Shown: one piece after another, positions 443-20,260 of the stretch
Layout: every line of letters begins with the position of its first letter
Numbering within the stretch: the stretch's first letter is position 1
Source of the DNA: Odoribacter lunatus
GTDB taxonomy: Bacteria > Bacteroidota > Bacteroidia > Bacteroidales > Marinifilaceae
Reading direction: 5' to 3'
DNA length: 64,000 nt
Assembly: GCF_943193135.1 (NCBI RefSeq)
Contig: NZ_CALPCZ010000003.1
Coordinates: forward strand, 62,001-126,000
Translations under genes and position numbers: made by a program
Notes under the pieces: generated by a model
What the model saw: only the letters and a program-made list of their open reading frames with translations
Told to the model about the DNA's origin: nothing
Databases searched by the model: none

Positions 443-515
443 GATTCAGTAGCTCAGTCGGTAGAGCACAACACTTTTAATGTTGGGGTCCTGGGTTCGA
501 ATCCCAGCTGGATCA
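443..515 (+). tRNA. tRNA-Lys (anticodon UUU)
   Basis: A complete cloverleaf can be folded by eye. The acceptor stem is GATTCAG/CTGGATC. The anticodon stem CAACA/TGTTG closes the loop CTTTTAA, giving anticodon TTT. The T arm contains GGTTCGAATCC, and the discriminator base is A515. CCA is not encoded. Its 3' end is the attachment site of the integrated element that follows. Confidence 0.95.
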
Positions 516-516
516 C
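499..516 (+). repeat. Left attachment repeat (tRNA-Lys 3' end)
   Basis: GAATCCCAGCTGGATCAC forms the 3' end of tRNA-Lys and recurs exactly at 25388-25405 in direct orientation, next to mutS2. This is the classic trace of tyrosine-recombinase integration into a tRNA gene, with the gene kept whole on the left. Confidence 0.85.
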
Positions 517-755: not shown

Positions 756-1976
756 ATGACAATGCAACGAACCTATTTTTCGATTCTCTTCTTTATCAGA
801 AGGACAAGATTGTTGAAGAACGGCGAAGCCCCTATCGGACTGCGCATTACCATGAACGGGCGGCGTGCCGAACTTCAGCTTGGACGGAGCGTTGACGCGA
901 TGCGCTGGAACGCTCAACGAGGCTGTGCTGTCGGCAAAGACCGGAAGACTTTGGAGTTGAACCAGTATCTGGAAGTTATCCGCACCAAAATCTATCAACT
1001 CTACCGGGAACTGCTGGAGACGGGCAAACCCATTACCGCCGAAATACTTAAGCGTCGGTTCAACGGAGAGGGCGATACTCCCAGAATGCTTCTGGAGGTC
1101 TTTCGCGAGCACAACCGGAAGTATCGTGAACTGCTGGGGAAGGATTATGTGAAAGGCACCGTCCTCCGGTATGAACGCACCGTCCGTTATCTGGAAGAGC
1201 TGCTCCAGATGAAATACAACCGCACAGACATTCCATTACGGGAAATAACCCCTGCTTTTGTCCTGGAATTTGAACACTTCATAAAAGTGAGCAAGGGATG
1301 TGCCCAGAATGCGACGGTCAAATACCTCAAAAATCTCAAAAAGGTAATCCGTCTTGCCTTGACAAACAAATGGATGAGCGACGACCCTTTTCAGGAAATG
1401 CGTTTCCACCAGACACAGAGCAACCGAGACTTTCTGACGGAGGAGGAATTACACAAACTCATCAGTAAGGATTTTGATATTCCGCGTCTGGAGATAGTTC
1501 GCGATATCTTTGTATTCTGTTGTTTGACCGGGCTGGCTTTTACCGACGTACAGCACCTGACGCCGTTTCATATTTCACGTGACAATACGGGCAGCTATTG
1601 GATACGCAAGCCCCGTGAAAAGACGAACAATATGTGCAACATCCCCCTGCTTGACATTCCGCGGATGCTTGTGGAGAAATACAGCTCACATCCGGAGTGT
1701 TCTCGGAAAGGAGCCGTCTTTCCCGTACCCTCTAACCAGCGTATGAACAGCTATCTGAAGGAGATTGCCGATATTTGCGGCATAAACAAATCCATCAGCT
1801 CGCACGTTGCCCGTCATACCTTTGCTTGTGTGGCGCTCGCTAACAAGGTTTCCATGGAATCCATCGCCAAAATGCTTGGTCATTCCGACATCCGTACGAC
1901 CAAGATATATGCCAGGTTGATGGACAAGACAGTGGCGGAAGAAATGGATGTGTTACGTCAAAAATTCAGCGTATGA
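756..1976 (+). CDS. int: Tyrosine recombinase / integrase (IntDOT-like)
   Basis: This 406-residue site-specific recombinase most likely catalyses integration at, and excision from, the tRNA-Lys site ~240 bp upstream. The N-terminus (~1-95) fits the arm-binding domain of Bacteroidetes integrases, residues ~105-200 fit the SAM-like core-binding domain, and the rest is catalytic. Visible catalytic parts are HVARHTF (His-x-x-Arg), LGHSDIRTTKIYAR (His and the nucleophilic Tyr) near residues 375-392, and TGLAFTDV where most family members have TGLR. Loss of the first catalytic Arg is known for IntDOT-type enzymes. A strong AAAGGAGG ribosome site lies just before ATG 756. The stop overlaps the next start by 4 bp. 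Confidence 0.93.
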   Translation: MTMQRTYFSILFFIRRTRLLKNGEAPIGLRITMNGRRAELQLGRSVDAMRWNAQRGCAVGKDRKTLELNQYLEVIRTKIYQLYRELLETGKPITAEILKRRFNGEGDTPRMLLEVFREHNRKYRELLGKDYVKGTVLRYERTVRYLEELLQMKYNRTDIPLREITPAFVLEFEHFIKVSKGCAQNATVKYLKNLKKVIRLALTNKWMSDDPFQEMRFHQTQSNRDFLTEEELHKLISKDFDIPRLEIVRDIFVFCCLTGLAFTDVQHLTPFHISRDNTGSYWIRKPREKTNNMCNIPLLDIPRMLVEKYSSHPECSRKGAVFPVPSNQRMNSYLKEIADICGINKSISSHVARHTFACVALANKVSMESIAKMLGHSDIRTTKIYARLMDKTVAEEMDVLRQKFSV

Positions 1977-2374
1977 ACCGAGGAATCATTACAATCAGCG
2001 AAACGGGGGCGGTCACGATGCCGGACGTTCCCGTATGGATGACCCTGTCGGAAATCGCCGACCTGCTCGGCGTGTTCGAGTACGATGTACGAAAGGTTGT
2101 CAAGTCCATTTACAAGAACAAGGAACTAAGCGAGTTTGATACGGCGAAGTATGCCAGGCAACCCAATGGCATCAGTTATGATGTTTACAACCTTGAAATA
2201 ATTTTAGCCGTCTCGTTCAGAATACGGAGCAAGGGAAGTCGTATCTTCCGGCAATTTCTGATAGAACGGTTATATTCCGGCAAGAACGGCGACACGATAC
2301 CTACGGTGTATTTGGTGGTATATAAGGACGGTTTCAACCGACAAGGTCGGGATAAAGGAGGTATATACAATTAA
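1973..2374 (+). CDS. Unknown protein coupled to the integrase
   Basis: This 133-residue protein is translationally coupled to the integrase through an ATGA overlap. Residues ~22-60 (WMTLSEIADLLGVFEYDVRK) look like a helix-turn-helix, followed by a part resembling the N-terminus of RhuM-like or antirepressor-like proteins (YDVYNLEIILAVSFRIRS). Linkage to int suggests a role in integration/excision control or in maintenance. I do not recognise a defined family with certainty. Confidence 0.6.
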   Translation: MNRGIITISETGAVTMPDVPVWMTLSEIADLLGVFEYDVRKVVKSIYKNKELSEFDTAKYARQPNGISYDVYNLEIILAVSFRIRSKGSRIFRQFLIERLYSGKNGDTIPTVYLVVYKDGFNRQGRDKGGIYN

Positions 2375-2587
2375 ACAGACAAGTCCGTTCTTTCCGTCGC
2401 CTGTTTCCGCTATCCGGTTGCAAAGATAGGCGTGCAGCTTTTGAGAAGTGCAAGGTCGGGCGGACAGAACCGTTTCGGATGCAATCTTCCTCCTTCGGAG
2501 CGTATTCCGTCCGAAAACCTTGCACCTGTCAACGGCACGCCCCCAAAGGCATCCGGCAACGGGAACAAGTGACGGAAAGAAAACAGA

Positions 2588-2643
2588 AAAACAGCCTGCA
2601 CGGGACACCGATACGATGTTATCCGGCAGGCTGTTTTCTTTTT
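2588..2643. terminator. Convergent terminator
   Basis: A perfect 12-bp stem (AAAACAGCCTGC at 2588-2599 with 2626-2637) has a 26-nt loop and is followed by CTTTTTT. It lies between the converging int operon and the minus-strand HTH gene. The rest of the gap 2375-2722 shows no gene. Confidence 0.7.
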
Positions 2644-2722
2644 TGGTGTTTGATAATGCCTCAGGGGAGGCAGCCGGAGAACTGCGCTCCATCAAGAAAA
2701 TCAGACGGCATCCACAATTCAC

Positions 2723-3034
2723 CTAATCCTGACATCGGAACGCTTCCCGATATCCCTCCTCCAGCATCTTTTCTATGTCGCTCTCCCTGTAAAGAATCTT
2801 TCCGCCCAACAGGATATACGGGATTCTTCCCTCATTCCGGTAGTCCTGCAATGTCCGTCGGCTCACTTTCAACCGGGCGGAAAGCTCCTTGTCCGTCAGA
2901 TAGCGTTCCCCGTTCAAGACAGGACGGCAACCGGCGGCAAGGCGTTCCATTCCTTTCAGCATCCTCTCGAGGCTTTCCATAAAGCGGCTGACCCTTTCGT
3001 TCTTTTCCGTTATCAGTTCGTTGTTCATAGGCAT
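2723..3034 (-). CDS. Excisionase-like HTH protein
   Basis: This is a 103-residue protein. The central part LTDKELSARLKVSRRTLQDY, followed by RNEGRIPYILLGGKILYRESDIEKML, is a winged MerR-like helix-turn-helix (HTH_17/excisionase type). Pairs of such small proteins are standard in Bacteroides mobilizable elements and usually act as excision factors or as regulators of the mob genes. A second one follows immediately upstream on the same strand. DNA binding is well supported; the excision role is inferred from context. Confidence 0.8.
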   Translation of the reverse strand: MPMNNELITEKNERVSRFMESLERMLKGMERLAAGCRPVLNGERYLTDKELSARLKVSRRTLQDYRNEGRIPYILLGGKILYRESDIEKMLEEGYREAFRCQD

Positions 3035-3113
3035 TTGGTTTTAGGTTAATTTCAGTTTAGGTTTTAATTTGTTGTTCATTTTACTTCATTTCCGGATTCA
3101 GTGGTTCCTTATT

Positions 3114-3425
3114 TCAAATCGCCCTCTTCCTGAATTCCGCCTCTTTCCGTCTTTCCTCCACAACCGGGAGGATGCGTCTCACATCCTGGGGCTTGTAATA
3201 GATTTTGTAGTTAATCCGGCTGTATGCCAGCGTACCGTTATCCCGAAGCGTCTGCAACGTCCGGGGACTGATGTTGAGCATCCGGCACACGTCCTGATTG
3301 TCCAGCCATTCTCCCATGCCTTTGTCTCCGCATCGCCGGCAGATTTCCTCCACCCGGTTTACAAACCGGTCAAATTTCTCACTCATTTCATCGAACGTCT
3401 TCTTTTCAATCGTAATTACTTCCAT
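3114..3425 (-). CDS. Excisionase-like HTH protein
   Basis: I use ATG 3425 (MEVITIEKKTFDEMSEKF) because the 24-residue upstream extension to 3497 is hydrophobic and unlike the family. The 103-residue product has an N-terminal amphipathic helix and then an HTH_17 domain (WLDNQDVCRMLNISPRTLQT, ending in INYKIYYKPQDVRRIL). It parallels the gene at 2723-3034 and the two probably form one minus-strand unit. The likely role is excision or transcription control of the element. Confidence 0.78.
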   Translation of the reverse strand: MEVITIEKKTFDEMSEKFDRFVNRVEEICRRCGDKGMGEWLDNQDVCRMLNISPRTLQTLRDNGTLAYSRINYKIYYKPQDVRRILPVVEERRKEAEFRKRAI

Positions 3426-3832
3426 ACATTTTACTGGTTTTGATATGATTATTAATTTTATTTCATTTGCGAAGTAAAACACTTTCATCCATATCATCGC
3501 ACAAATTCAAGCAAGTGGCAGCATGTGGCACAAGTTTGCAGTGGTTTGCTTCATTCCGGGGTATTTATCCGTGTGCTTATCGTTATCAATATTTTTCCTG
3601 TAATCACTATACCGTGTGTACTCACTATCTGTGATGACCGCACTTGGGCAAATCGGTGAAGTATGTACGGAACCTCTACTCTTCCTCGTGGCAATAGTCG
3701 ACAAAATTGACGCATCGGCTCCAATCGCTTGGCTGATGACGGCGACTTCCTTTCTTTTGTTCCCGACAACAGGTCCGGAGTAGATGCCGAGACCATTTTA
3801 TAAATCCTATAAACAATTAAACCAGATTCATC
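3426..3832. other. Intergenic control region of the mob module
   Basis: About 400 bp separate the divergent HTH genes and the DUF3408 gene. At 3508-3552 a cluster of short related words (GTGGCA twice, GTTTGCA, GGTTTGC) looks like possible protein-binding iterons. No gene with a convincing frame is visible. Confidence 0.4.
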
Positions 3833-4249
3833 ATGACAGAGAAAAGAAAAACATCGGCAGGAAGCGAAGACGAATATCGGGACTTTCATCCGGAAAGCTA
3901 TTTCCCGACAGAGGAGTTCCCAAAAATGGAGGAATATCTTCCCTTATCCCAATCGCCTTCCGAGAACGCAGAACAGGACGCATCCGTTTCCAATGAAGTA
4001 TCCACAAAACGCATCAGCAACAAGCAACGGCGGCTTTCTTTGGAAGAATACCGCACCGCCTTCCTGCAAGTTCCCCGAATCGAGGACCGCAAGCCCGTGT
4101 TCATCAGCAGAAATGTCCGTGACAAGCTGGACAGGATTGTCCGCACCCTCGGAACAAGGCGGATGAGCGTATCGGGACTGCTGGAGAATCTTGCAACACA
4201 TCATCTGGAAATCTATCGGGACGACCTCGAACAATGGCGTAAATTGTAA
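3833..4249 (+). CDS. DUF3408-type mobilization accessory protein
   Basis: This 138-residue protein has an acidic, low-complexity first half and a conserved C-terminal half (FISRNVRDKLDRIVRTLGTR, then MSVSGLLENLATHHLEIYRDDLEQWRKL). That is the typical tail of DUF3408 proteins in Bacteroides conjugative and mobilizable elements. The tail resembles a ribbon-helix-helix DNA-binding fold. It sits directly before the MobC-like and relaxase genes, so a role in relaxosome formation or partition is likely but not shown. Confidence 0.7.
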   Translation: MTEKRKTSAGSEDEYRDFHPESYFPTEEFPKMEEYLPLSQSPSENAEQDASVSNEVSTKRISNKQRRLSLEEYRTAFLQVPRIEDRKPVFISRNVRDKLDRIVRTLGTRRMSVSGLLENLATHHLEIYRDDLEQWRKL

Positions 4250-4427: not shown

Positions 4428-4784
4428 ATGGAACAGAAGAAGGAACGCAACAGGGGCGGTCGTCCCAGAAAAGAGGAAACCGAGAAACTGAAATACCGTG
4501 TAGCGGTGAAAATGACGCCCCCGGATTATTTCCGTCTGTTGACGCAGGCGCATCAGACGGGCGTATCGCCGAGCGAGTACATGAGGGAGTGTTTCCGGAA
4601 CGGTCATGTGAAGGAACGGCTGTCGGAGGAACACGCCGGATATGTGCGCCAGCTCTGCGGCATGGCGAACAACCTCAACCAGCTTGCACGCAAGGCGAAT
4701 ACGGGAGACTTATCCGAAGTCCGTTGGGACTGCAAGGTGGTGGTGGCAAGGATTCACGAACTCATCAGCAGGATAGGAATATGA
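4428..4784 (+). CDS. MobC-like relaxosome accessory protein
   Basis: I prefer ATG 4428 (MEQKKERNRGGRPRKEE, 118 residues) because the upstream frame passes through the hairpin region. The basic N-terminus is followed by YRVAVKMTPPDYFRLLTQAH, a ribbon-helix-helix-like stretch. The C-terminus has YVRQLCGMANNLNQLARKAN, the typical MobC/bacterial-mobilization motif. These proteins bind oriT and assist the relaxase. The TGA stop overlaps the relaxase start, so the two are translationally coupled. Confidence 0.85.
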   Translation: MEQKKERNRGGRPRKEETEKLKYRVAVKMTPPDYFRLLTQAHQTGVSPSEYMRECFRNGHVKERLSEEHAGYVRQLCGMANNLNQLARKANTGDLSEVRWDCKVVVARIHELISRIGI

Positions 4785-5716
4785 TGGCTAAAATTGTAAA
4801 GGGAGGCGATTTTAAGGGCGTGGTGAATTACATTCTTGATAAGGAAAAAGGAACGCAGGTGGTGGCTCACGACGGCTTATTTCTGGAAAATAAGGAGACC
4901 ATTGCCATGAGTTTCAACGTCCAGTCGCAGATGAACAACAAGGTTGCGAAGCCGGTCGGACACATCGCATTGAGCTTTTCCAAGGAGGACGAGCCGCGTT
5001 TGACGAACCGCGTCATGGCAGGTATCGCACTTGAATATATGGAGCGAATGGGCATCCGGAATACGCAGTTCCTCATCGCCCGGCATTTCGACAAGGAGCA
5101 TCCGCACGTGCATATCGCCTTCAACCGCATAGACAACAATGGCAACACCATTTCGGACAGGAACGAGCGACTACGCAGTACCCGTATCTGCAGGGAGCTG
5201 ACGTTGAAATACGGTCTGTATATGGCGGACGGCAAGGAGAACGTCAAGCGCAACCGCCTGAAGGAGCCGGACAAGACGAAGTATGAACTGTACGCCATCC
5301 TCAAAACGGAAACTGGCAGGTGCGGAAACTGGAACGTGCTTGTCGCCAACCTGAACCGGCAGGGCGTGGAAGTCCGCTTCAAGTATAAGGGGCAGACAAA
5401 CGAGGTGCAGGGAGTTGTCTTTACCGTGAACAGCTACCGCTTCAACGGCTCCAAGGTGGACAGGCGCTTCAGTTATTCCAGGATTGACGCAGCCTTGCAG
5501 CGTAACAGAATGGAAGAACAACACGATTATCCTCGGCAGGAACAAGTACAGCCAAACAGGATAAATCCGGATAAACATGACAGGGATAATTTTATCGGGG
5601 ATTCATTAGGCCTGTTCGCCTCAAACGCTAATAATGTACCAGAGGAAAGAGAACTTTACGACCCTTATTTAAGAAACAGAAAAAAGAGGAAGAAACAACG
5701 TAAAATCAATTGGTAA
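4781..5716 (+). CDS. Relaxase (MobA/VirD2-like, MOBP type)
   Basis: This is a 311-residue relaxase. Translation starts at ATG 4781 or 4784, overlapping the mobC stop. The N-terminus (KIVKGGDFKGVVNYIL) carries the likely catalytic Tyr. The metal-binding histidine motif is HFDKEHPHVHIAFNRI (near residue 110), with H-x-x-x-x-H-x-H spacing. The enzyme nicks oriT and pilots the strand during transfer. The C-terminal third is basic and of low complexity. The protein is short compared with large relaxases but normal for Bacteroides mobilizable units. Confidence 0.92.
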   Translation: MMAKIVKGGDFKGVVNYILDKEKGTQVVAHDGLFLENKETIAMSFNVQSQMNNKVAKPVGHIALSFSKEDEPRLTNRVMAGIALEYMERMGIRNTQFLIARHFDKEHPHVHIAFNRIDNNGNTISDRNERLRSTRICRELTLKYGLYMADGKENVKRNRLKEPDKTKYELYAILKTETGRCGNWNVLVANLNRQGVEVRFKYKGQTNEVQGVVFTVNSYRFNGSKVDRRFSYSRIDAALQRNRMEEQHDYPRQEQVQPNRINPDKHDRDNFIGDSLGLFASNANNVPEERELYDPYLRNRKKRKKQRKINW

Positions 5717-5948
5717 TTGTGGCGTCACCTCTCCGGCTGCGATACTCTTGACGACTGTGGCCCGCCATTCGTGGGCAAGTATCGCGAGAAACAAGAACAT
5801 ACGTCTTTCCATGATCAGCGAGGGAATGGGACTTGATTCTGAGAGGACAATGCAAATTTATCTTACTTCACTAGAATGTTCCGTTATAGATAATGTCAAT
5901 GCGCTTATTTTGAAAGATTTGTAATGGAGGTTTTGTTTTGTAGAATTG
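5717..5948. other. Gap between relaxase and invertible segment
   Basis: No supportable gene. G+C-rich sequence resembling the mob module runs to about 5850, then changes abruptly to the A+T-rich DNA of the peptide/radical SAM cassette. This is a likely junction between mobilization backbone and cargo. Confidence 0.5.
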
Positions 5949-5966
5949 TTATCTCTTACGAAGAGA
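5949..5966 (+). repeat. Inverted repeat, left end of putative invertible promoter
   Basis: The 18-bp word TTATCTCTTACGAAGAGA is the exact reverse complement of 6115-6132. Each copy is itself nearly palindromic (TCTCTT-CGT-AAGAGA), as expected of a recombinase core site. Confidence 0.65.
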
Positions 5967-5980
5967 TACAATACATAAGG

Positions 5981-5988
5981 CAAATATA
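5981..5988 (-). promoter_or_regulatory. Invertible promoter, pointing away from the peptide gene
   Basis: Read on the minus strand, 5981-5988 is TATATTTG, a full match to the Bacteroidetes -7 box TAnnTTTG. A TTTG lies 22 nt upstream of it. It sits inside the 148-bp segment bounded by the inverted repeats. In the orientation given here it fires leftwards (OFF for the peptide/radical SAM genes). Inversion would place it about 80 nt upstream of ATG 6182. Confidence 0.55.
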
Positions 5989-6114
5989 TACAAAATACTG
6001 TATTTAAGAGCAAAATATTCTTTAAAATAAATTTTTGTATACCAACATATTTAGCAATATTTCCCAGATTACTTTTTATGATGTTGATTTTCAATATATA
6101 GTTGTGTCTTATTG

Positions 6115-6132
6115 TCTCTTCGTAAGAGATAA
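6115..6132 (-). repeat. Inverted repeat, right end of putative invertible promoter
   Basis: TCTCTTCGTAAGAGATAA is the exact inverted copy of 5949-5966. It lies 50 bp before the start of the Cys-rich peptide gene. Confidence 0.65.
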
Positions 6133-6181
6133 TATAATGGCAAGACCTATAAAGCCGTCAGAGTAGGGAAAATAATAAATT

Positions 6182-6403
6182 ATGCTAATACCAAAAGTAG
6201 ACGATTACAAACAAATTAAAGGACACGTTAGTGATTATATGGATGTTCATATGGCTGCATGTGCATGCGGAGGTGGATGTAGCTGTCTTTGTAAACAAAT
6301 GACGGTAGTTAGTATTCAAAAAATTTATGTATGTTTAGCTTGCAGTTGTAATACCTCTGTAATGAGAGAATTATTTAAGGAAAAAATTGATATTTTAACT
6401 TGA
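6182..6403 (+). CDS. Cys-rich peptide, candidate RiPP precursor 1
   Basis: This is a 73-residue peptide. Residues 1-24 form a leader-like part (MLIPKVDDYKQIKGHVSDYM) that is shared with the peptide at 11654. From residue 27 it is Cys-rich: CACGGGCSCLC, then CLACSC around 51-56, eight Cys in total. A radical SAM/SPASM enzyme starts 68 bp downstream on the same strand. Small Cys-rich peptide plus SPASM maturase is the usual arrangement for thioether-bridged RiPPs (sactipeptides, ranthipeptides). No transporter or leader peptidase gene lies next to it. Function inferred from context and composition only. Confidence 0.65.
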   Translation: MLIPKVDDYKQIKGHVSDYMDVHMAACACGGGCSCLCKQMTVVSIQKIYVCLACSCNTSVMRELFKEKIDILT

Positions 6404-6471
6404 GTTAAATGGGGGATTTTCCTCTTTTTTGTTTTACTGCATTGATAATAATCTTATTCTTAAAATAAATA

Positions 6472-7851
6472 ATGCAATATTCTAGATATGTTCATCTATT
6501 TTATGTAGGTAATGATGTGGTGGCATTATATCATGCATTATTAGTTCGTACTGTGTTTATTACTTATACGGAAGCACAACAATTGGATTTTTATTTTAAA
6601 ACAAATGATATTGATAGTGATGCTATTTTAGAAACTATCCAGTATCTGTATGTTAATTGTTATATTGTAGTAAATGCTGATGAAGACAATAAATTGTATA
6701 ATAAATGTATCGAATTGATATCTCCGCCTGCTATTTCTAATGCATATATTGTGGTAACAGAAAATTGCAATTTTAATTGTAAATATTGTTTTATATCTAA
6801 TGCTGTCCAACATGCCGGAGAAACAAAAGTAATGACCAATGAGGTTGCTCGACAGACGGTAAAGTTGTTACAAAAAACATATGAACGACAGCAGACTTCT
6901 TATGATAAGACTATTACATTTTATGGAGGAGAGCCATTACTTAATTTTGATGTGATTTGTTTTTTTATGGATGAGGTGAATCGTATTAAGGAAAAATATT
7001 ATTGGCCATCTGATATGAAATATGCATTAATTACTAATGGCTTTTTGTTGACAAAAGATATTTTAAAAGCTCTCCAAGGGTACGGTATTACTTTAAGTAT
7101 ATCATATGACGTGGATAAGGAATCGCATGCTCAGCGAATAGATAAAAATGGTAATAATAGCTATGAGGTTGTTAGAGAGAAAATAGGATTATGTCATGAA
7201 ATGGGGATACCATTCAGTTTATCCATTACAATTTCTGAAGTGTTGTTGAGTCGGAAAAATGAGGTTTTAACGGAAATATTAAAGTTATCTCCCGCAACGA
7301 TAGTATTTAATCTTTTAATACCTAATACACAACGATTAAAAAATGAACATTATTATGAAGATGCGACGGATTTTATGATTCAAGCGTTTATCCGTTTGAG
7401 AGGAATTGGGCTTTACGAAGATCGGATAATGAGAAAGGTTCGTGCGTTTTCAGAGAATAAAATGCATCTATATGATTGTTGTGCTGGAGGTGGTAATCAA
7501 TATGTTATAACTCCTGATGGAAAGATTGGTATCTGTCATGGATATTTGAATAATCGAAAATATTTTTCATCAAGTATTTATGATGTGGATTTTGATTTTC
7601 GGACACAGGTAGATTATTTGTATTGGAAGAAACGTACACCCCTATTAATGAAACAATGTCAGGAATGTGAGTGTCTTAGTATATGTGGAGGTGGTTGTCC
7701 TTATGCGGCAGATTATATGTATGGTTCTATTTATGAACTAGATACTCGATTTTGTATCCATGCCAAGAAAGTGTTAGATTGGATGATTAAAGATTTGTAT
7801 TATCAAGTGGTTAATAAAAGAAAAAATAGTTTAAATGGGAATTCTGTGTGA
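6472..7851 (+). CDS. Radical SAM/SPASM peptide maturase
   Basis: This is a 459-residue protein. The radical SAM iron-sulfur motif is NCNFNCKYCF (Cys-x3-Cys-x2-Cys) near residue 103. FYGGEPLLNF follows near 160, the usual GGEP motif. The C-terminus holds SPASM-type cysteines: CCAGGGNQYVITPDGKIGIC near 343-362, and CQECECLSICGGGCPYA near 398-414 plus a further Cys. SPASM proteins bind auxiliary clusters and mostly modify peptides. The N-terminal ~90 residues may be a peptide-recognition (RRE-like) region. The gene is very A+T-rich compared with the kinase genes after it, suggesting separate origin. The substrate is probably the peptide at 6182. Confidence 0.9.
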   Translation: MQYSRYVHLFYVGNDVVALYHALLVRTVFITYTEAQQLDFYFKTNDIDSDAILETIQYLYVNCYIVVNADEDNKLYNKCIELISPPAISNAYIVVTENCNFNCKYCFISNAVQHAGETKVMTNEVARQTVKLLQKTYERQQTSYDKTITFYGGEPLLNFDVICFFMDEVNRIKEKYYWPSDMKYALITNGFLLTKDILKALQGYGITLSISYDVDKESHAQRIDKNGNNSYEVVREKIGLCHEMGIPFSLSITISEVLLSRKNEVLTEILKLSPATIVFNLLIPNTQRLKNEHYYEDATDFMIQAFIRLRGIGLYEDRIMRKVRAFSENKMHLYDCCAGGGNQYVITPDGKIGICHGYLNNRKYFSSSIYDVDFDFRTQVDYLYWKKRTPLLMKQCQECECLSICGGGCPYAADYMYGSIYELDTRFCIHAKKVLDWMIKDLYYQVVNKRKNSLNGNSV

Positions 7852-7913
7852 ATGTGTGTGGCTTTCTTATAAAATTCAATATCATGATACGATAAAGGAA
7901 GATTTATATAACT

Positions 7914-8300
7914 ATGTCTGTAACCAAATACATTTATTTCAATTCACGGGATGAACTTTTTAAAGTGGCTATATCGGCGATCGTGTATATAGAGGCGGAC
8001 GGGAATTATACGCGTGTTATGTTGATGAATGATCAAGCTGCCATGATAGGTATGAATTTGGGGAAAATGGAAGAATTCCTGTCAAGCGGATTTGCTAAGG
8101 AAACATCGGGTTTGGCGCGTATCGGCAAGCGTTTTATTATCAATATGAAATACATATTCAAAATTAATTTGTTGAAGCAGGAGTTGGTTTTGAGCGACCA
8201 AAAATCCTTTATCTATACTTTGAATATCTCAAAAGATGCCCTTAAAAATTTGAAAAACATACTTATACAATCAGTAACTGTAAATAAGCAACAATTATGA
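7914..8300 (+). CDS. Stand-alone LytTR DNA-binding regulator
   Basis: This 128-residue protein is essentially one LytTR domain: DELFKVAISAIVYIEADGNY at the start, LARIGKRFIINMKYIFKI in the middle. There is no receiver domain, so it is not a classical response regulator. It may be controlled by phosphorylation by the neighbouring Ser/Thr kinase or by binding the FHA protein. It overlaps the FHA gene by ATGA, so the two are made together. Likely role: local transcription control of the island. Confidence 0.85.
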   Translation: MSVTKYIYFNSRDELFKVAISAIVYIEADGNYTRVMLMNDQAAMIGMNLGKMEEFLSSGFAKETSGLARIGKRFIINMKYIFKINLLKQELVLSDQKSFIYTLNISKDALKNLKNILIQSVTVNKQQL

Positions 8301-9001
8301 TAGAGATTATTATCGGACGGGAGGCAGGTGTGGAGAAGTCTCGTTTGGCTTTGATGGCAGGAGACAAGACTGCTTATTGTGGAAATCCCGGCAGCGTACC
8401 TCGCAGCGTGAGCCGGAAGCATTGTCGTTTGGTGATTCATGAGGATTCAACTCTTTCCGTGAGTGATTTGACGGACAATAATTTTATGTATGTCAACGGT
8501 TCGGATTGTAAGAGTCGGGGACATATAACCGTGAATGATAAGGTGGAATTGGGACCAGACCGTTATTGTCTGGAACTTTCGACTATCGTTAAGGCATTTG
8601 CTGCGCAACAGACTTATCATATTGCCTCTTTGAAAGAGGTGTATGATAATTACAATAAAACCAAGTTGGATAATCAGATCCGGCAGGGAAAACTTAATGC
8701 TTTGAGTGCTTTGCCGGGAGTGCTTTCCATGTCGTCTATGGTTTTGGCGATTTGCTTGAACAATGAAGGAATCAGAATTGTTATGATTGTATTGGCAGCG
8801 GTATTTGCCGTCGGTGTTGTGATTGTGCGAATGAAAAATTCAAGCAATAATCCACTGAAAATGAAGCAATTGGAGGATGGTTATCACGATAGATACGTTT
8901 GCCCCAATCCGTCTTGCCGACATTTTTTGGGATCAATGCAATACAAAGATTTGTTGAAGAACGGGGCATGTCCTTACTGCAAGGCGAAGTATGTAGAATA
9001 A
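8297..9001 (+). CDS. FHA-domain membrane protein with zinc ribbon
   Basis: This is a 234-residue protein. Residues 1-95 are an FHA domain that recognises phosphothreonine: the GREAG start, SVSRKHCRLVI with the conserved S-R-x-H core, and NNFMYVNG. Two hydrophobic stretches (near 138-175) make it a membrane protein. The C-terminus has a four-Cys zinc ribbon (CPNPSC, then CPYC). It sits 16 bp before the kinase gene, which fits a docking partner for the phosphorylated kinase or its substrates. Confidence 0.85.
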   Translation: MIEIIIGREAGVEKSRLALMAGDKTAYCGNPGSVPRSVSRKHCRLVIHEDSTLSVSDLTDNNFMYVNGSDCKSRGHITVNDKVELGPDRYCLELSTIVKAFAAQQTYHIASLKEVYDNYNKTKLDNQIRQGKLNALSALPGVLSMSSMVLAICLNNEGIRIVMIVLAAVFAVGVVIVRMKNSSNNPLKMKQLEDGYHDRYVCPNPSCRHFLGSMQYKDLLKNGACPYCKAKYVE

Positions 9002-9017
9002 TTAAATAACAAAAAAT

Positions 9018-11549
9018 ATGGATTCAAAAGCGCTTCATGAGGGGTATTTGTTGAAGAACAGCGAATACCGGATTATCTCTTCGCTGGGTCAGGGGGGATT
9101 CGGCATCACTTATTTGGCGGAACAGCTTTCCTTGTCGCGAAAAGTGGCGATCAAAGAGTTTTTCATGAAAGAAAACTGTAACCGCGATGAAAACACGTCG
9201 GAGGTTTCCGTTCCTTCTGTCGGGAGCCGGGAATTGGTGGCAAAATTCAGACAGAAGTTTTTGCGGGAGGCAAGGATGATAGCCAAACTGGATAATCTGC
9301 ATATCGTTAAGATTCACGATGTATTTGAAGAGAACGGGACAGCTTATTATGTGATGGAGTATTTGGACGGAGGTTCTCTTGTAGATGAGGTGAAACATCG
9401 AGGTCCGATGTCCGAGCAGAAAGCCCTCGGCTATATCCGTCAGATAGCTTCTGCGTTGGATTATCTGCATGGGATGAATGTTCTTCATTTTGACATCAAA
9501 CCTGCGAACATTTTAATCGGGAATGCTGGTCAGGCGATGCTGATAGATTTCGGCATCTCGAAGCATTATGATGCGGGAGGGAGTCAGACGAGTTCCACGC
9601 CCGTCGGCATCAGCAATGGTTATGCCCCGTTGGAACAGTATCAGCAGGGAGAAATCAGTACTTTTACACCGGCGACGGACATCTACGCCTTGGGGGCGAC
9701 GTTGTATTATCTGTTATTGGGACAGACACCTCCGAGTGCATCGGAGGTAAATGAGGAAGGGGGTGTTGCATTGCCTGCCCATTTGTCCGCCTCTGTTCGC
9801 AAGGCGATAGAGAAGGCGATGGCGCCTCGTCGCAGAGACCGTCCTCAGAGCGTTCAGGAGTTTTTGTCATTGCTGGATGGCGGTCGTACTGTGGCATCTG
9901 AAGTTCCGGAAGCGGACGAAGAGACGAAGGTCAACACCGGATTCAAGCGGGATTCGTCATCAGTTCCAGTTTCTTCTTCTCCGAAGCGTAATTATCATAT
10001 AGGCTTGTGGATAGCTTTGTGTTCATTTATCGGTATTGGAGTCTTGTCGTTTTTGCTTTTAATGCAGGGAAAAACATCAGCGCCGATACCTCCTGCAGTT
10101 CCAACGGGGACATTGAAAATCAGCAGTATCCCTTCTGGAGCCGTATTGTGGTTGGACGGTAAAAATATGGAAAAATCAACGCCCTTGACAGTCGAGAATC
10201 TTTCGTCAGGCGTTCATAAGGTTGTATTGAAACTGGATGGTTATGAAGACGGCGTAAAAGAGGTGGCCGTTTCTTCTTCAGCACACATGGACTGTAATAT
10301 AACTCTGAAGAAAAAAGTATCTTCCGTTGAACCTCCGGTTGTTCAAAGCGGCACGTTGAAAGTCAGTAGTACTCCTTCGGGTGCATCGATTTGGATTGAC
10401 GGCAAGAACACGGGTAAAACGACGCCTAAAGTGTTGGAGGATTTGTCTGCCGGAAAGCATGCGGTTGTTCTGAGACTTTCCGGTTATCAGGAGTTTAGCA
10501 AGTCCGTTAGTGTTATTTCTTCCCAGCGTAGTGATTGCCATGTTGATTTGGTCAAGGAACCCGAGGTCGTACGAACCGGCACGTTGAAAGTCAGCAGCAC
10601 TCCTTCGGGAGCATCGATTTGGATTGACGGCAAGAATACGGGTAAGACGACGCCGGAAATTTTGGAGGATATAGCAGTAGGCAGTCATAAGATCGTATTG
10701 AAGCATGACGGTTATCAGGACGTCGCAATGCAAGTCAGTGTCTCTTCCGGCAAGCGTACGGAGTGCACCGTCACCCTTGACGAAGTAACCGAGCCTGTCA
10801 AACCTTCACCCCCTCAGAACTACACGGAGACGGCTTTGGGTGTCAATATGAAGATGGTCTATGTTGCTAGCGGCAGTTTTATGATGGGAGCAACTTCGGA
10901 GCAGGGGAGCAATGCTTTTGACTATGAAAAACCTGTTCATCAAGTGGTTCTTTCCGGTTACTACATCGGTGCTTACGAGGTGACTCAGGGACAGTGGGAG
11001 AAGGTGATGGGCACATCCGTTACCCAACAGCGAGATAAGGCAAATTCAAGTTGGCCTCTTTATGGTGTCGGTTCTGATTATCCGATGTATTATGTTAGTT
11101 GGGATGAGGCTCAGGCATTTTGTCGTGAGCTGAGCCGCCGGACGGGCAAGCGCTATGTTTTGCCAACTGAGGCTCAGTGGGAGTATGCCGCCCGTGGAGG
11201 TAACAGGAATGAGGGGACCAAATACAGCGGAAGCGATGCTGTCGATGTCGTAGTTTGGTATGATTCCAACAGTGGTTCTTCTACTCATCCGGTAGGTACG
11301 AAGCGTCCGAACGCCTTGGGTTTGTATGATATGAGTGGCAATGTTTGGGAATGGTGTGCGGACTGGTACGGTTCTTATCCGAATATGTATCAGGCGAATC
11401 CTACAGGTCCTTCTTCCGGCTCTCGCCGCGTGTATCGCGGCGGTAGTTGGTTTAACAGTGCGGCGGGCAGCCGGGTGTCGAATCGGAACGACGGTACTCC
11501 GAGCCGCCGTGACGGCCATCGCGGCTTCCGCGTGGTGTGTCTTCCTTAG
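9018..11549 (+). CDS. Ser/Thr kinase-TM-PEGA-C-lectin receptor 1
   Basis: This is an 843-residue protein. Kinase domain (~15-285): glycine loop GQGGFGITYLAE, VAIKEFF Lys, catalytic HFDIKPANIL, LIDFGISK. The catalytic loop is HFD rather than HRD, a non-RD kinase. One TM helix lies at ~328-350. Three PEGA repeats follow (~364-435, 445-515, 521-590), each with G-T-L-K-x-S-S and G-Y. The C-terminus (~604-843) is an FGE-sulfatase/C-type-lectin fold starting at GVNMKMVYV. The paired FGE catalytic Cys after RGGSW are missing, so it is probably a ligand-binding rather than an enzymatic domain. The kinase part differs from receptors 2 and 3 although the PEGA and lectin parts are nearly the same, suggesting module exchange. 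The last 35 residues are hypervariable. Confidence 0.9.
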   Translation: MDSKALHEGYLLKNSEYRIISSLGQGGFGITYLAEQLSLSRKVAIKEFFMKENCNRDENTSEVSVPSVGSRELVAKFRQKFLREARMIAKLDNLHIVKIHDVFEENGTAYYVMEYLDGGSLVDEVKHRGPMSEQKALGYIRQIASALDYLHGMNVLHFDIKPANILIGNAGQAMLIDFGISKHYDAGGSQTSSTPVGISNGYAPLEQYQQGEISTFTPATDIYALGATLYYLLLGQTPPSASEVNEEGGVALPAHLSASVRKAIEKAMAPRRRDRPQSVQEFLSLLDGGRTVASEVPEADEETKVNTGFKRDSSSVPVSSSPKRNYHIGLWIALCSFIGIGVLSFLLLMQGKTSAPIPPAVPTGTLKISSIPSGAVLWLDGKNMEKSTPLTVENLSSGVHKVVLKLDGYEDGVKEVAVSSSAHMDCNITLKKKVSSVEPPVVQSGTLKVSSTPSGASIWIDGKNTGKTTPKVLEDLSAGKHAVVLRLSGYQEFSKSVSVISSQRSDCHVDLVKEPEVVRTGTLKVSSTPSGASIWIDGKNTGKTTPEILEDIAVGSHKIVLKHDGYQDVAMQVSVSSGKRTECTVTLDEVTEPVKPSPPQNYTETALGVNMKMVYVASGSFMMGATSEQGSNAFDYEKPVHQVVLSGYYIGAYEVTQGQWEKVMGTSVTQQRDKANSSWPLYGVGSDYPMYYVSWDEAQAFCRELSRRTGKRYVLPTEAQWEYAARGGNRNEGTKYSGSDAVDVVVWYDSNSGSSTHPVGTKRPNALGLYDMSGNVWEWCADWYGSYPNMYQANPTGPSSGSRRVYRGGSWFNSAAGSRVSNRNDGTPSRRDGHRGFRVVCLP
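11451..11547 (+). other. DGR-like variable region, receptor 1
   Basis: Codons at 11451-11522 differ sharply from the two sister genes, mostly at codon positions 1 and 2. The following 25 bp (11523-11547) are identical in all three genes down to wobble bases, as expected of a 3' homing anchor. Confidence 0.6.
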
Positions 11550-11653
11550 TTTCTGATATTCATTTGTTATAGCCTATAGATTTCTAAGATATAAAAATAA
11601 TAAGTGGAGATGCCGAAAATCCAGTAAAGAGTAGGTCTAAAATTAATATATTT

Positions 11654-11836
11654 ATGTTAATACCAAATTTTAATGATTACAAACAGATTCAAGGGAATAT
11701 TGTAGATTATTTAGAAATTAATAAATCTCGTTTTAAAATTGTATGTGGGGGGTGTAGTTGTGTATTTCCTCCGCTTGGTATAAAATGCTTTTTAATTTTC
11801 AATAATAATAATTTGCTAATAGACAGAAGTTATTAG
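11654..11836 (+). CDS. Cys-rich peptide, candidate RiPP precursor 2
   Basis: This is a 60-residue peptide whose start MLIPNFNDYKQIQGNIVDYL matches the peptide at 6182 in about 11 of the first 20 positions. The following part has CGGCSC and one more Cys, four in all, against eight in the first peptide. No second maturase gene follows, so it would have to share the enzyme at 6472, or it is a decaying copy. The flanks are A+T-rich like the first cassette. It interrupts the run of kinase-island genes after receptor 1. Confidence 0.55.
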   Translation: MLIPNFNDYKQIQGNIVDYLEINKSRFKIVCGGCSCVFPPLGIKCFLIFNNNNLLIDRSY

Positions 11837-11922
11837 AATGCATATTTGATTATTCAATAGCAATCGTATAGTTATAATAATTTTAATCTTAAGCGCTCAT
11901 AGATAAATTATCGTAATTTAAA

Positions 11923-12435
11923 ATGGATACTTTTATTGTTATTAAAAATATTGTTGAGTTTATTGTTTTAATAATAGGAGGGCCTATCACAATAATTCAG
12001 ATTATTTTATTAATTAGACAATCAAAAGAAAGAAGTGATTGGAATAGAAAAGATGTTACTTTTAAATATATGAATTTATATACAAAAGAGTTAAAGGAAA
12101 TTAATACAACTCTTCTTGGTAAATTGGATTTACTTTATAAAACCAATAAGATGAATCCTAATTTAGAAAATCAAATTAAAAATTTCCTTTCTGATGAAAA
12201 GAAGAGAGTAGAGATATTTAGTATTGTAGCATATTTTGAAGAATTAGGAATTGGAGTTAGATGTAAATATTTTGATTCTAATATTGCAAAAGAATATATG
12301 TATCTCACGACAATAAAAACATATCAATCTTTAAAATATTATTTTGAATATCGGAAAAAAGAAATCGGTAAACCTATTGCATCAAATTTCAAGATGCTAG
12401 CTGAAAAATGGGAAAACGAAGAGCAATTTTCATAG
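11923..12435 (+). CDS. Small membrane-anchored protein of unknown function
   Basis: This is a 170-residue protein. One N-terminal TM helix (FIVLIIGGPITIIQIILLI, residues ~13-31) is followed by a charged, helix-rich cytoplasmic part. Codon use is strongly A+T-biased, like the Cys-rich peptide cassette and unlike the flanking kinase genes. Proteins of this build (one TM plus helical tail) are frequent in mobile islands as effectors or immunity proteins, and it could be an immunity gene for the peptide at 11654. That is a guess from position. Confidence 0.6.
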   Translation: MDTFIVIKNIVEFIVLIIGGPITIIQIILLIRQSKERSDWNRKDVTFKYMNLYTKELKEINTTLLGKLDLLYKTNKMNPNLENQIKNFLSDEKKRVEIFSIVAYFEELGIGVRCKYFDSNIAKEYMYLTTIKTYQSLKYYFEYRKKEIGKPIASNFKMLAEKWENEEQFS

Positions 12436-12591
12436 ACAATATGGAATTAGAAAGATGATGAAAAAATAAAGATATATTCAGTATTTTATACTTTGTACAG
12501 AAAAGCCGGGAGTTCGTGTAATAGGCGGGAAGATGTTTTTTTAATCGGGAAGAGTGGTTTATGTTTGTCTTGAAAATAAAATTGAAAACCT

Positions 12592-13641
12592 ATGAATAAA
12601 TTAAAATTTCTTGCGTCGATATTTTTGTTTGTGTCGATGGTGATGGGAAAGACTGTTACTGCCCATGATTTTTCTGTAACTGTTTTCGGCGGGAATAAGC
12701 TATTCCTGAATGTTACGGATACATTGAAAAAGACTGTTGAAGTAACTTATGAAGGAAGTGTTTCAGAAAATCATGAACACTTGCCTGAAGGAATGTTGTA
12801 CATCCCTGAAACTGTGAAATATAAAGGGCAAACTTATACGATAACTGCGATAGGTCCGAAAGCATTCAGTGAAGCATTGGGACTTGAGGGGGTTGTCTTA
12901 CCTGCTTCGCTTTCTAAGATTGAGGCTTTTGCCTTTGAAGGATGTACGGGACTGAAAAGTATCGTTTATCCCGGTTCGCCGGTCTCTGTCGGGGAAGGAG
13001 CGTTTTTTAGATGCGACAGAATTGAATCGGTTTCTTTCGGCAGCGATTGGATTTCTGTGAATCTTGCTCCTTATGTATGGAGTGATTCGTTGAAGGAAAT
13101 AGAGGTTCCGGCAAAGGTAAAAAAACTGACTAATTTAAAAGCGCTGAGATCTTTGGAGAAAGTATATGTAAGTATTAATAATCCGATGTATTCTTCTAAC
13201 GACGGTTTGCTTTATTCCAAAGATTCCAAAATACTTTATGCGGCTCCTTGTGCCTATCGGGGCAGCATTGTCGTACCCGAAGGTACGGAAACCGTTTTTG
13301 AAGGAGCCTTCTCCGGCTGTCTCTATGTGGAGAACATTGATTTGCCCGGGACCATCAAGCAACTTTCCTATTTGGAATTTATCCGGGCTGTAAATTTAAA
13401 GAGTATTACATTAAAGGCGAAGGAGCCGATAAATACAGCAAAACATGGAGATGTATCCGTATTTGCACTCGGTCTGCCTTCTCCGGGTATAGTGATTTAT
13501 GTACCAAAACCGGCTTATAATGCTTATTGTACTGCAATTTGTCATGAAGCGGGTGCATACGAGAATATAAACGGGAAACAGAGAGAAATATTTGAAAACC
13601 CGGTTTTCGCGACGAAAGAAAATATCAAAAAAATAAAATGA
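12592..13641 (+). CDS. Secreted BspA-like leucine-rich repeat protein
   Basis: This is a 349-residue protein with a signal peptide (KFLASIFLFVSMVMGKTVTA, residues 5-24). It then has LRR_5/BspA-type repeats such as ITAIGPKAFSEALGLEGVVL, SKIEAFAFEGCTGLKSIVYP and VSVGEGAFFRCDRIESVSF. BspA-type proteins act in surface binding and host or microbe contact. It overlaps the next gene by 4 bp and begins an operon of closely spaced genes running to the PP2C gene, so it may be a ligand-binding or exported component of the phospho-signalling island. Confidence 0.85.
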   Translation: MNKLKFLASIFLFVSMVMGKTVTAHDFSVTVFGGNKLFLNVTDTLKKTVEVTYEGSVSENHEHLPEGMLYIPETVKYKGQTYTITAIGPKAFSEALGLEGVVLPASLSKIEAFAFEGCTGLKSIVYPGSPVSVGEGAFFRCDRIESVSFGSDWISVNLAPYVWSDSLKEIEVPAKVKKLTNLKALRSLEKVYVSINNPMYSSNDGLLYSKDSKILYAAPCAYRGSIVVPEGTETVFEGAFSGCLYVENIDLPGTIKQLSYLEFIRAVNLKSITLKAKEPINTAKHGDVSVFALGLPSPGIVIYVPKPAYNAYCTAICHEAGAYENINGKQREIFENPVFATKENIKKIK

Positions 13642-13946
13642 TCATGAAAAAAAGTATTGTTTTCTTAGTTTTTATAGTTCTTGCCATCGTGAATATAGCG
13701 CAGACGAACAAAACGGATTATTCTTCGGCCTTGAGATTAAAATCTCTTGAAAACAAAGAGGCAAAACTGACAGCAAAACTGGACAGTTTGAAAAATGTAA
13801 CGATTATGGATACGAGTCCTTGGGCATTGGAACGTAAGAAAATAATCCGGGATTCCATGCTGTTGTCAGTGAAATCGGAAATAATTACTGTACAGCTCGA
13901 ACGAAAAGAGATCAAGGCTAAACAGAGGACGTCGGTGTCGAAATGA
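13638..13946 (+). CDS. Small exported coiled-coil protein
   Basis: The product has 102 residues from ATG 13638, or 100 from 13644 (MKKSIVF), which is the likelier start. A hydrophobic N-terminus (SIVFLVFIVLAIVNIAQ) is a signal peptide or anchor. The rest is highly charged and helical (LKSLENKEAKLTAKLDSLKN), probably coiled coil. It overlaps both neighbours by ATGA, so it belongs to the operon. No family recognised. Confidence 0.65.
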   Translation: MIMKKSIVFLVFIVLAIVNIAQTNKTDYSSALRLKSLENKEAKLTAKLDSLKNVTIMDTSPWALERKKIIRDSMLLSVKSEIITVQLERKEIKAKQRTSVSK

Positions 13947-14446
13947 AAATCAGGAAAGAAAAGATTAATTGGAAGCAGGTTGTGCTCGGTCGTGTCCCCG
14001 GAATATTGCTGGGAACAAGGGGGGCTTTTACGGATGCTTTTGCTGCAGGGGAGAGCAAGGTCATCGGAGAGCATCATCTTGATACGGTATCGGATGAAAT
14101 GTCATTCGGAGATGCTTTTGCCGCTGCACGGGCCGAATTGGGGCAGGGAGGTGTTTTTGAGTGGAGGGGCAATCTGTATGCGACCGATACGATAGAGGAG
14201 TGGAATGCGTCCCATCCTCAGGAAGACAATCAGGATGAAATACCGGTGGAACAGGATGTGGATGAGAATGAAGTGGTAATATTCGGAGAAGCTGATGCGG
14301 AAGATTTTTCCGAAATAATGGTGATTGATACGGATGATGACGGGTGCGATGATTTTGCAGATATTCTGGACAACATGGACTTTACGGATGCGGAATCGTA
14401 TGATTCCGATTTAACGGATGACGGGTGTAGTAACGATATTATATAA
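13943..14446 (+). CDS. Asp-rich protein with AFAxAR-GGVFxWxG motif (copy A)
   Basis: This is a 167-residue protein. The basic start KINWKQVVLGRVPGILLG matches KIAWKSCLVGGIPGIILG in the protein at 16705. Both then share a motif of the form MSF-AFA-AR-G-GGVF-W-G-Y-T-EW (here at ~51-88). The C-terminal half is very acidic, with Asp-rich runs such as DTDDDGCDDF that recall calcium-binding loops. The hydrophobic Gly-rich segment may insert in or associate with the membrane. The family is unknown to me. The two copies flank the caspase/FHA/PP2C genes, which suggests a structural or substrate role in this system. Confidence 0.7.
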   Translation: MKIRKEKINWKQVVLGRVPGILLGTRGAFTDAFAAGESKVIGEHHLDTVSDEMSFGDAFAAARAELGQGGVFEWRGNLYATDTIEEWNASHPQEDNQDEIPVEQDVDENEVVIFGEADAEDFSEIMVIDTDDDGCDDFADILDNMDFTDAESYDSDLTDDGCSNDII

Positions 14447-14449
14447 TAA

Positions 14450-15160
14450 ATGATGAAACGGGTTGTTGTTATTGTGTTTTTTGCTTTGCTGGGAGTTGTG
14501 GCAAAAGCTCAAAGTATTTATTTGGTGGCTGTCGGTATTGCGGATTATCCCGGGACACAGAACGATTTGACTCTTCCGGTGAATGATGCCAAGGCCATTT
14601 ATCGGCTGTATCAGAAGCATTTCAATGCCAAAGCTGTTCTTATTACCGATGAAAGGGCGACGAAACAGCATATTCTGAATCAGGCCGGCAGGCTTTTCGC
14701 ACAGGCGAAAGATGAGGATATCGTTATCTTTTTCTTTTCGGGACACGGTTATCCGGGAGGTTTTGCCATTTATAATGATTATTTGGATTATGGGGATGTA
14801 CGTTCGTTGTTTTCTGTTTGCAAGGCTGCTAACAAGATGATTTTTGCAGATGCCTGTTTCTCCGGAGATATCCGGGAAAATAAAAGGGATGTCTCTTCCC
14901 GGAATCAGGGAGTCATGCTTTTCCTTTCATCGAGAGACGATGAATTTTCCATTGAAAATCCAAGTATGCGAAACGGTTTCTTCACGGCATGTCTGTTGCG
15001 TTGCCTGAAAGGAGGTGCGGATGTGAATCACGATAGAATCATCACGGCCAAAGAGTTGTTTACAGAGGTGAGCAAAGGGGTTCGTAGACTTTCAGGAGAT
15101 ATACAACATCCGGTGATGTGGGGAAATTTTGATGACAATATGCCTGTAATGAAATGGTAG
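14450..15160 (+). CDS. Secreted caspase-family (C14) peptidase
   Basis: This is a 236-residue protein. A signal peptide (VVVIVFFALLGVVAKAQ) is followed by a caspase-like p20 fold: LVAVGIADYPG, the catalytic His in FFFSGHGYPGG (~101) and the catalytic Cys in IFADACFSGD (~142). A later segment (NGFFTACLLRCLKGGADVNH) matches the substrate-pocket region. The His/Cys dyad is intact, so it should be active. Export to the periplasm is unusual for a signalling caspase and puts it on the same side as the receptor ectodomains. It lies 3 bp after the Asp-rich gene in the same operon. Confidence 0.9.
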   Translation: MMKRVVVIVFFALLGVVAKAQSIYLVAVGIADYPGTQNDLTLPVNDAKAIYRLYQKHFNAKAVLITDERATKQHILNQAGRLFAQAKDEDIVIFFFSGHGYPGGFAIYNDYLDYGDVRSLFSVCKAANKMIFADACFSGDIRENKRDVSSRNQGVMLFLSSRDDEFSIENPSMRNGFFTACLLRCLKGGADVNHDRIITAKELFTEVSKGVRRLSGDIQHPVMWGNFDDNMPVMKW

Positions 15161-15162
15161 CT

Positions 15163-15771
15163 ATGAATAAGATAAAAATTAAATGTCCCCATTGCGGGGC
15201 AACTCTTACGGTTGTGGATACGCCTGCCAATGCAGGGAAAAGTGTAAAATGTCCGAACTGCAGTGTAAAAAATCGGTATGAAAATTTTAAGCGAACGGAT
15301 TCCGATAAATGCGATGATGAGACAAGAATCAAGGGAATTCAGGGAAAGAATGGGGATGAAACTGTCCATGCAGGCAAAAAAGACCGTGTCGGGAAATTGA
15401 TGGATGAAACGACCGGGAAGGAGTATTTTTTGCAAGAGGGGACGAATCTGATAGGCCGGATGACATACCAGACAGCCCCCAAAGCGAGTGTCCCTATTGT
15501 AACGGACGATATGGGATTTAGCAGGGCGCATCTGTATATAGATGTGATATTGGCAAAGGATGGAATGTACCATTATTACGTTTATAATGCTTCTAATCAG
15601 AATCCGACTTATATCAATACGAACGAACTTATGAATACGGATAAAATCGGATTGAAAGAGGGGGACGTTATTTCCGCATCCAGGACGCGGCTTCGGCTTG
15701 TGAAATCGGCAGCGCATTACGGAGTGAAATCTGCCGGCAGTTTTAATAATGATGATAGTACTGACTTATGA
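15163..15771 (+). CDS. Zinc-ribbon FHA protein
   Basis: I use ATG 15163 (MNKIKIKCPHCGATL, 202 residues); ATG 15154 is possible. Residues 1-40 form a zinc ribbon (CPHC and CPNC). The second half is an FHA domain: GTNLIGRMTY, then FSRAHLYIDV with S-R-x-H, and NPTYINTNEL. It would bind phosphothreonine on the kinases or their targets. The stop overlaps the PP2C start by ATGA. The same zinc-ribbon plus FHA combination occurs, in reverse order, at 8297. Confidence 0.87.
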   Translation: MNKIKIKCPHCGATLTVVDTPANAGKSVKCPNCSVKNRYENFKRTDSDKCDDETRIKGIQGKNGDETVHAGKKDRVGKLMDETTGKEYFLQEGTNLIGRMTYQTAPKASVPIVTDDMGFSRAHLYIDVILAKDGMYHYYVYNASNQNPTYINTNELMNTDKIGLKEGDVISASRTRLRLVKSAAHYGVKSAGSFNNDDSTDL

Positions 15772-16676: not shown

Positions 16677-16704
16677 AGTAGTTGTATGTTATAAAAAGTG
16701 TATT

Positions 16705-17646: not shown

Positions 17647-17658
17647 AATAAACAAAAA

Positions 17659-20217: not shown

Positions 20218-20260
20218 TTTATGGTAGTCATTTTTATAGGCGTGAATAAATGAATCCAAT

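Follow-up and report, generated by a model that had tools for sequence, protein, structure and literature searches.

Organization of the locus

In the window (the entire 64-kb stretch of the Odoribacter lunatus genome that was analyzed here), an integrative mobilizable element abuts a C-terminal stump of a tyrosine recombinase, which is followed by a short segment enclosed by inverted repeats and a predicted operon that encodes a Cys-rich peptide precursor and its radical SAM maturase (Table 1). The mobilizable element is preceded by a tRNA-Lys gene, and no second copy of the 3' end of this tRNA was detected in the window. Each of the two peptide operons in this genome (the second one is described below) has the same mobilizable element next to it, with 86.7% DNA identity between positions 1973-4249 of the window and positions 1947-4194 of the second locus, L054.

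Table 1. Features of the locus discussed in the text (positions in the window)
Feature	Position	Strand	Remarks
tRNA-Lys (TTT)	443..516	+	left of the mobilizable element; ARAGORN
Tyrosine integrase of the integrative mobilizable element	756..1976	+	Pfam Arm-DNA-bind_5, SAM-like, Phage_integrase
Relaxase ORF of the mobilizable element	4589..5716	+	Pfam Relaxase, 3e-38; stop codon abuts the recombinase stump
C-terminal stump of a tyrosine recombinase	5720..5924	+	member of the invertase family associated with these repeats
Left inverted repeat	5949..5966	+	core TCTCTT-ACG-AAGAGA at 5952-5966
Putative invertible segment, 148 bp	5967..6114		predicted OFF orientation in the window
-7 box TATATTTG	5981..5988	-	14 bp inward from the left arm; directed to the left, opposite to the peptide operon
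TTTG at the -33 position	6011..6014	-	22 nt upstream of the -7 box; spacing slightly long
Right inverted repeat	6115..6132	-	core at 6115-6129
Nine-codon ORF MARPIKPSE	6137..6166	+	counterpart in the paralogous operon: MARPTKPLE
Cys-rich peptide precursor, FibroRumin-like, 73 aa	6182..6403	+	candidate for the nearest regulated gene
Weak terminator-like hairpin	6411..6425	+	between the precursor and radical SAM genes
Radical SAM/SPASM peptide maturase, FibroRumin type	6472..7851	+	TIGR04136; intact
LytTR DNA-binding protein	7914..8300	+	Pfam LytTR, 2.4e-11; 62 bp downstream of the maturase gene

The repeats and the predicted promoter within the segment

The initial annotation of this DNA described exact 18-bp inverted repeats around 148 bp, and the two arms are indeed complementary at 18 of 18 nucleotides (100%), with 148 nt between them. 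Apart from terminator-like hairpins, this pair is the only exact inverted repeat of at least 14 bp in the window: the remaining three have a gap of 2 nt, and dinucleotide shuffles (n=20) yielded 0 to 1 comparable inverted repeats. No further copy of the 18-mer was found in the 2.63-Mb genome when up to two mismatches were allowed. Each arm is itself palindromic, with one TCTCTT half-site on either side of a central ACG (TCTCTT ACG AAGAGA); half-sites around a short asymmetric center are the form expected of crossover sites of tyrosine recombinases. The segment has the properties of the recombinase-linked invertible promoters of Bacteroidales, namely, (near-)exact repeats and a non-coding spacer of 100-350 bp.

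A predicted outward promoter of the TTTG/TANNTTTG type is present in the segment, with a spacing of 22 nt between the -33 and -7 elements that is slightly long. The -7 box is the one that had been assigned to the minus strand in the initial annotation; when this segment is shuffled, such a box arises close to an arm by chance in about 6% of cases. The complementary claim, that no good plus-strand promoter precedes the ATG at 6182, agrees with the count of zero plus-strand TANNTTTG boxes in 5600-6181. Two plus-strand boxes with one mismatch, at 5905 (TTATTTTG) and 5933 (TTGTTTTG), are weak candidates for a fixed promoter.

The proposed OFF state holds on anatomy, given that the box is directed leftward and not at the peptide operon. 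When the segment is flipped in silico, the box comes to lie on the plus strand at 6093-6100, with 81 nt separating it from the ATG at 6182. The locus was assembled straight through in the OFF orientation alone, and thus the OFF form dominated the sample. In a search of public sequences for the flipped form, the right junction had no match in viral contigs, and no similar DNA was found in plasmids.

A recombinase reduced to its C-terminus

The 59-aa stump is 85% identical to residues 341-399 of a full-length tyrosine recombinase encoded on another contig of the same genome (C53), where the stop codon of the recombinase gene is located 31 bp before a site with the same half-sites. The DNA of the window is 76% identical to that contig from about position 5701, and the similarity continues across the left repeat to the promoter-bearing end of the segment. 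Between the stump and the left arm are 24 bp; the remainder of the gene is gone, apparently lost in a rearrangement that fused the gene to the mobilizable element. Thus, the linked recombinase of the window locus is represented by a C-terminal stump alone, and intact homologs are encoded on C53 and on contig C11. The integrase of the mobilizable element is not the invertase; it shows only about 25% identity to the invertase family. With the adjacent recombinase truncated, the window copy is either flipped in trans or is a frozen switch.

Capsule switches with the same half-sites in the same genome

The core TCTCTTNNNAAGAGA, with any three central bases, is present at eight places in the 2.63-Mb genome. 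These are the pair in the window (ACG/CGT), one site each on C26 and C53 (GTT), one each on C23, C24 and C25 (CCT), and a match on C10 that sits inside a coding stretch, as read from the sequence, and was taken as a chance occurrence. All five contigs with GTT and CCT sites end exactly 62 bp beyond the 15-bp core, and the contig-end overlap comprises 77 bases beginning at the core site, which is as would be expected from de Bruijn assembly branching at the site. The C23 and C24 contigs are identical over a flank of 39.9 kb, and their sequences part only within the segment, of which each carries a different end; C25, which represents the UpxY side, carries the same segment end as C24. Because the same flank is found connected to either end of a single segment, both orientations of the CCT segment were present in the sequenced DNA, which is direct evidence that inversion of this capsule switch occurred in the sequenced population. 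For the GTT switch, where the terminal 77-mers of C26 and C53 are identical and start exactly at the site, the assembly is consistent with inversion, the alternative being two separate copies of the segment.

The gene for the antiterminator UpxY next to the site on C25 reads away from it (E 5.9e-35, above the cutoff), as does a UpxY-like gene next to the site on C26 (E 4.4e-19, below the cutoff); both genes are followed by polysaccharide-type genes, as judged from the translations. Thus, the genome has two capsule switches with the same half-sites as the window segment, and in all three, the distance from the core to the box is exactly 14 bp. No recombinase match was found on the contigs of the CCT switch (C23-C25), so that this switch is presumably flipped in trans and serves as an inferred precedent for the window copy.

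As a side observation, the 39.9-kb flank is present twice in the assembly (loci L033 and L034, on C23 and C24, respectively), with the difference limited to the last 59 bases. Such a duplicated flank is a ready-made record of promoter inversion and may be common in draft genomes.

Related recombinases and segments in other genomes

We compared homologous recombinases (43-68% identity) from other genomes of the same family and order. In about 10 other genomes, the recombinase gene is followed by a repeat-flanked segment of 174-345 bp, and most of the homologs with enough downstream sequence have repeats of the same palindromic style, for example, CTCTCTTCTTAAGAGATA, CTCTCTTATCAAGAGAGGGAT and TTCTCTTTTTAAGAGAAATAG; a few homologs lack such a downstream segment (L004, L011, L014, L015 and L021). 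An outward TANNTTTG box is located at most 16 bp from an arm in 8 of the 10 segments (that of the window included); 2000 rounds of shuffling gave 0.39 such segments on average and never more than 3 of 10. The box usually lies 7-14 bp inside an arm, on the target side in some of the relatives and on the recombinase side in others. According to the translations, the genes beyond these segments encode UpxY, SusC-like receptors, fimbrial-type loci and a DNA methylase. A family-wide scan detected further pairs of cores about 165-330 bp apart, with centers that are reverse complements of each other (such as CAC/GTG, ATC/GAT, CTT/AAG and TTT/AAA).

Taken as anatomy, the claim of the initial annotation that the promoter is invertible gains support from the shared core, the 14-bp offset of the box and the adjacent remnant of a cognate recombinase. 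Given that a capsule promoter is flipped at the same recognition sequence in the same genome, the window segment looks like a genuine on/off switch.

The peptide operon and its paralog

The precursor and the maturase match best the two models of the FibroRumin system, TIGR04135 and TIGR04136, and their genes follow the same order as in that system. Both scores are below the curated cutoffs (E 8.7e-4 and 19 bits vs a cutoff of 45 for the precursor; E 1.3e-99 and 334 bits vs an equivalog cutoff of 400 for the maturase, nevertheless the best score among all models), and we therefore denote these proteins FibroRumin-like. The precursor gene is directly upstream of the maturase gene, a layout that is conserved in the paralogous operon and in relatives. 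The LytTR gene is possibly part of the same operon. In addition, the run of about 16 codirectional genes with small gaps that follows the switch (6182-22402) includes genes for LytTR, FHA, PEGA/SUMF1-domain kinases, a caspase-like protease (14450-15160) and a phosphatase-like protein, so that the effect of inversion could reach far beyond the peptide. Downstream of the kinase gene, there is a second precursor-like ORF (11654-11836; MLIPNFNDYKQIQGNIVDYLE...CGGCSC) with the same leader and a shortened, divergent core, which is 56% identical to the precursor over the first 34 residues.

The paralogous operon, on C11, encodes a maturase and a precursor that are 71% and 66% identical, respectively, to those of the window. 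There, an intact recombinase, 51% identical to the C53 enzyme, lies 28 bp before a pair of repeats (16 bp exact; 19 nt at 95%) with 140 nt between them; two CsgG-like genes come next, and then those for the precursor and the maturase. Hence both peptide operons of this genome stand behind recombinase-linked repeats. The C11 segment (L054:8473-8650) has a different core (CTCTTTGATAGAGATA) and contains no perfect TANNTTTG box, only one near match that faces left. A nine-codon ORF precedes both precursors (at L054:10198 in the paralogous locus) and is absent from the relatives checked; it is a possible leader peptide or, alternatively, a chance ORF.

The similarity between the two operons begins at the right arm (6127), and the window stump resembles the C53 enzyme (85% identity), from which the C11 enzyme is distant (51%). 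The latter suggests that the window switch was probably acquired separately rather than copied along with the operon. At five homologous peptide loci in other genomes, neither such repeats nor a recombinase were found in the 3.5 kb upstream (380 bp in the case of L027, which begins at a contig end), indicating that inversion is not a general feature of the FibroRumin-like peptide family.

Proposed mechanism and alternative explanations

We propose that the segment at 5949-6132 is a functional phase-switch promoter (inverton) of the peptide operon, of the tyrosine-recombinase family that is common in this family of Bacteroidales, and assign this interpretation a probability of about 0.7; that the segment is, or once was, an invertible promoter switch appears almost certain. 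Under this scheme, the recombinase would bind the TCTCTT half-sites in each arm, and strand exchange across the central TT-NNN-AA would invert the 148-bp segment. The single outward promoter predicted in the segment, TTTG-N22-TATATTTG, 14 bp inside one arm, would in the present orientation be directed left, toward the recombinase stump, leaving the peptide operon OFF; after inversion, it is expected to drive the precursor, the maturase and possibly later genes. Present-day flipping would depend on the intact homolog on C53, encoded beside a capsule switch with identical half-sites. More tentatively, as a suggestion with a somewhat less than even chance of being correct in full, the switch may be an orphan: with its own recombinase lost, it would be inverted by the enzyme of the capsule switch, such that one enzyme sets both the capsule and the peptide states, whereas the private 3-nt centers (ACG, AAC and AGG) prevent recombination between the loci.

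The main competitor is a relic: a former invertible promoter locked OFF by the loss of the local recombinase, in which case the operon would be silent or transcribed by read-through. The reduction of the adjacent recombinase to about 60 residues fits this scenario, and so does the assembly of a single orientation in the window, whereas the sibling sites broke the assembly. Nevertheless, we consider it unlikely because the arms are still perfect over 18 bp, the 3-nt center included, the precursor and radical SAM reading frames are intact, and other loci of the genome are flipped at identical half-sites, in one case without a recombinase gene on the respective contigs. The possibility that the switch is real but has another target, with the promoter serving the left side or a fixed promoter driving the gene at 6182, is considerably less probable still. 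Although the promoter is currently directed to the left, only the recombinase stump is located there, and it reads toward the segment, whereas in the sibling switches, the gene beyond the far arm that reads away from it is a typical phase-varied one (UpxY, SusC-like, fimbrial-type or methylase). As for a fixed promoter, there are weak sigma-70-like matches upstream of 6182, but these are fewer than in shuffles, and the region lacks the plus-strand TANNTTTG box as indicated above.

It is highly improbable that the repeats are not recombination sites at all but rather an operator, a transcript hairpin or the ends of a short non-autonomous transposon. The palindromic arms could bind dimers or fold, and a segment of 184 bp that ends in repeats would match a small insertion element in size. 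However, the 148 nt between the arms are too great a distance for the stem of a terminator, and a transposon is at odds with the single genomic copy and with the lack of a matching direct duplication at the ends. Moreover, the same core is found in capsule switches that flip and, elsewhere, next to members of the recombinase family.

Relationship to known switches and implications

Capsules, fimbriae, outer-membrane receptors and restriction systems are known to undergo phase variation in gut Bacteroidales, and invertible promoters linked to recombinases are familiar from this order (reviewed in PMC12632263; inverton survey in PMC11892184). The window segment shares with the UpxY/capsule promoters the repeat-flanked segment, the TANNTTTG promoter and a single predicted ON orientation, but differs from them in that the target would be a radical SAM peptide operon and the tyrosine recombinase beside the segment is a stump. 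The Tsr-type invertases of Bacteroides fragilis are described as acting on both local and distant sites (Roche-Hakansson 2007, via PMC12632263); the CCT site and the window copy would likewise need one recombinase to serve a segment nearby and another far away, although here trans action is deduced from the genome layout. Mpi, the global invertase of the B. fragilis capsule promoters (PMC5903667), is similar in that one enzyme controls several promoters, but it is a serine recombinase, whereas the family analyzed here consists of tyrosine recombinases. Capsule-type switches with other cargo are represented by the Bacteroidales invertible promoters that drive antibiotic-resistance genes on integrative elements (PMC8748976); the cargo in the present case is a peptide operon.

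Phase control is no part of the FibroRumin model descriptions. In the literature searched, which covered few subscription journals, no paper linked radical SAM peptides or ranthipeptides to invertons or phase variation, and we found no mention of FibroRumin by name; the sole match to a search for an invertible promoter and a RiPP was an unrelated paper on lanthipeptide software. Thus, the type of switch is already known, the literature searched contained no case in which a radical SAM peptide operon is its target, and the control arrangement is orphaned.

If the proposed switch is functional, a ribosomally made, radical-SAM-modified peptide would be produced by only part of the population, which would explain why such peptide operons can appear silent in culture; the ON form would then have to be selected or locked before a search for the product. 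More generally, this genome is a test case for how one recombinase may keep several switches apart via three central bases.
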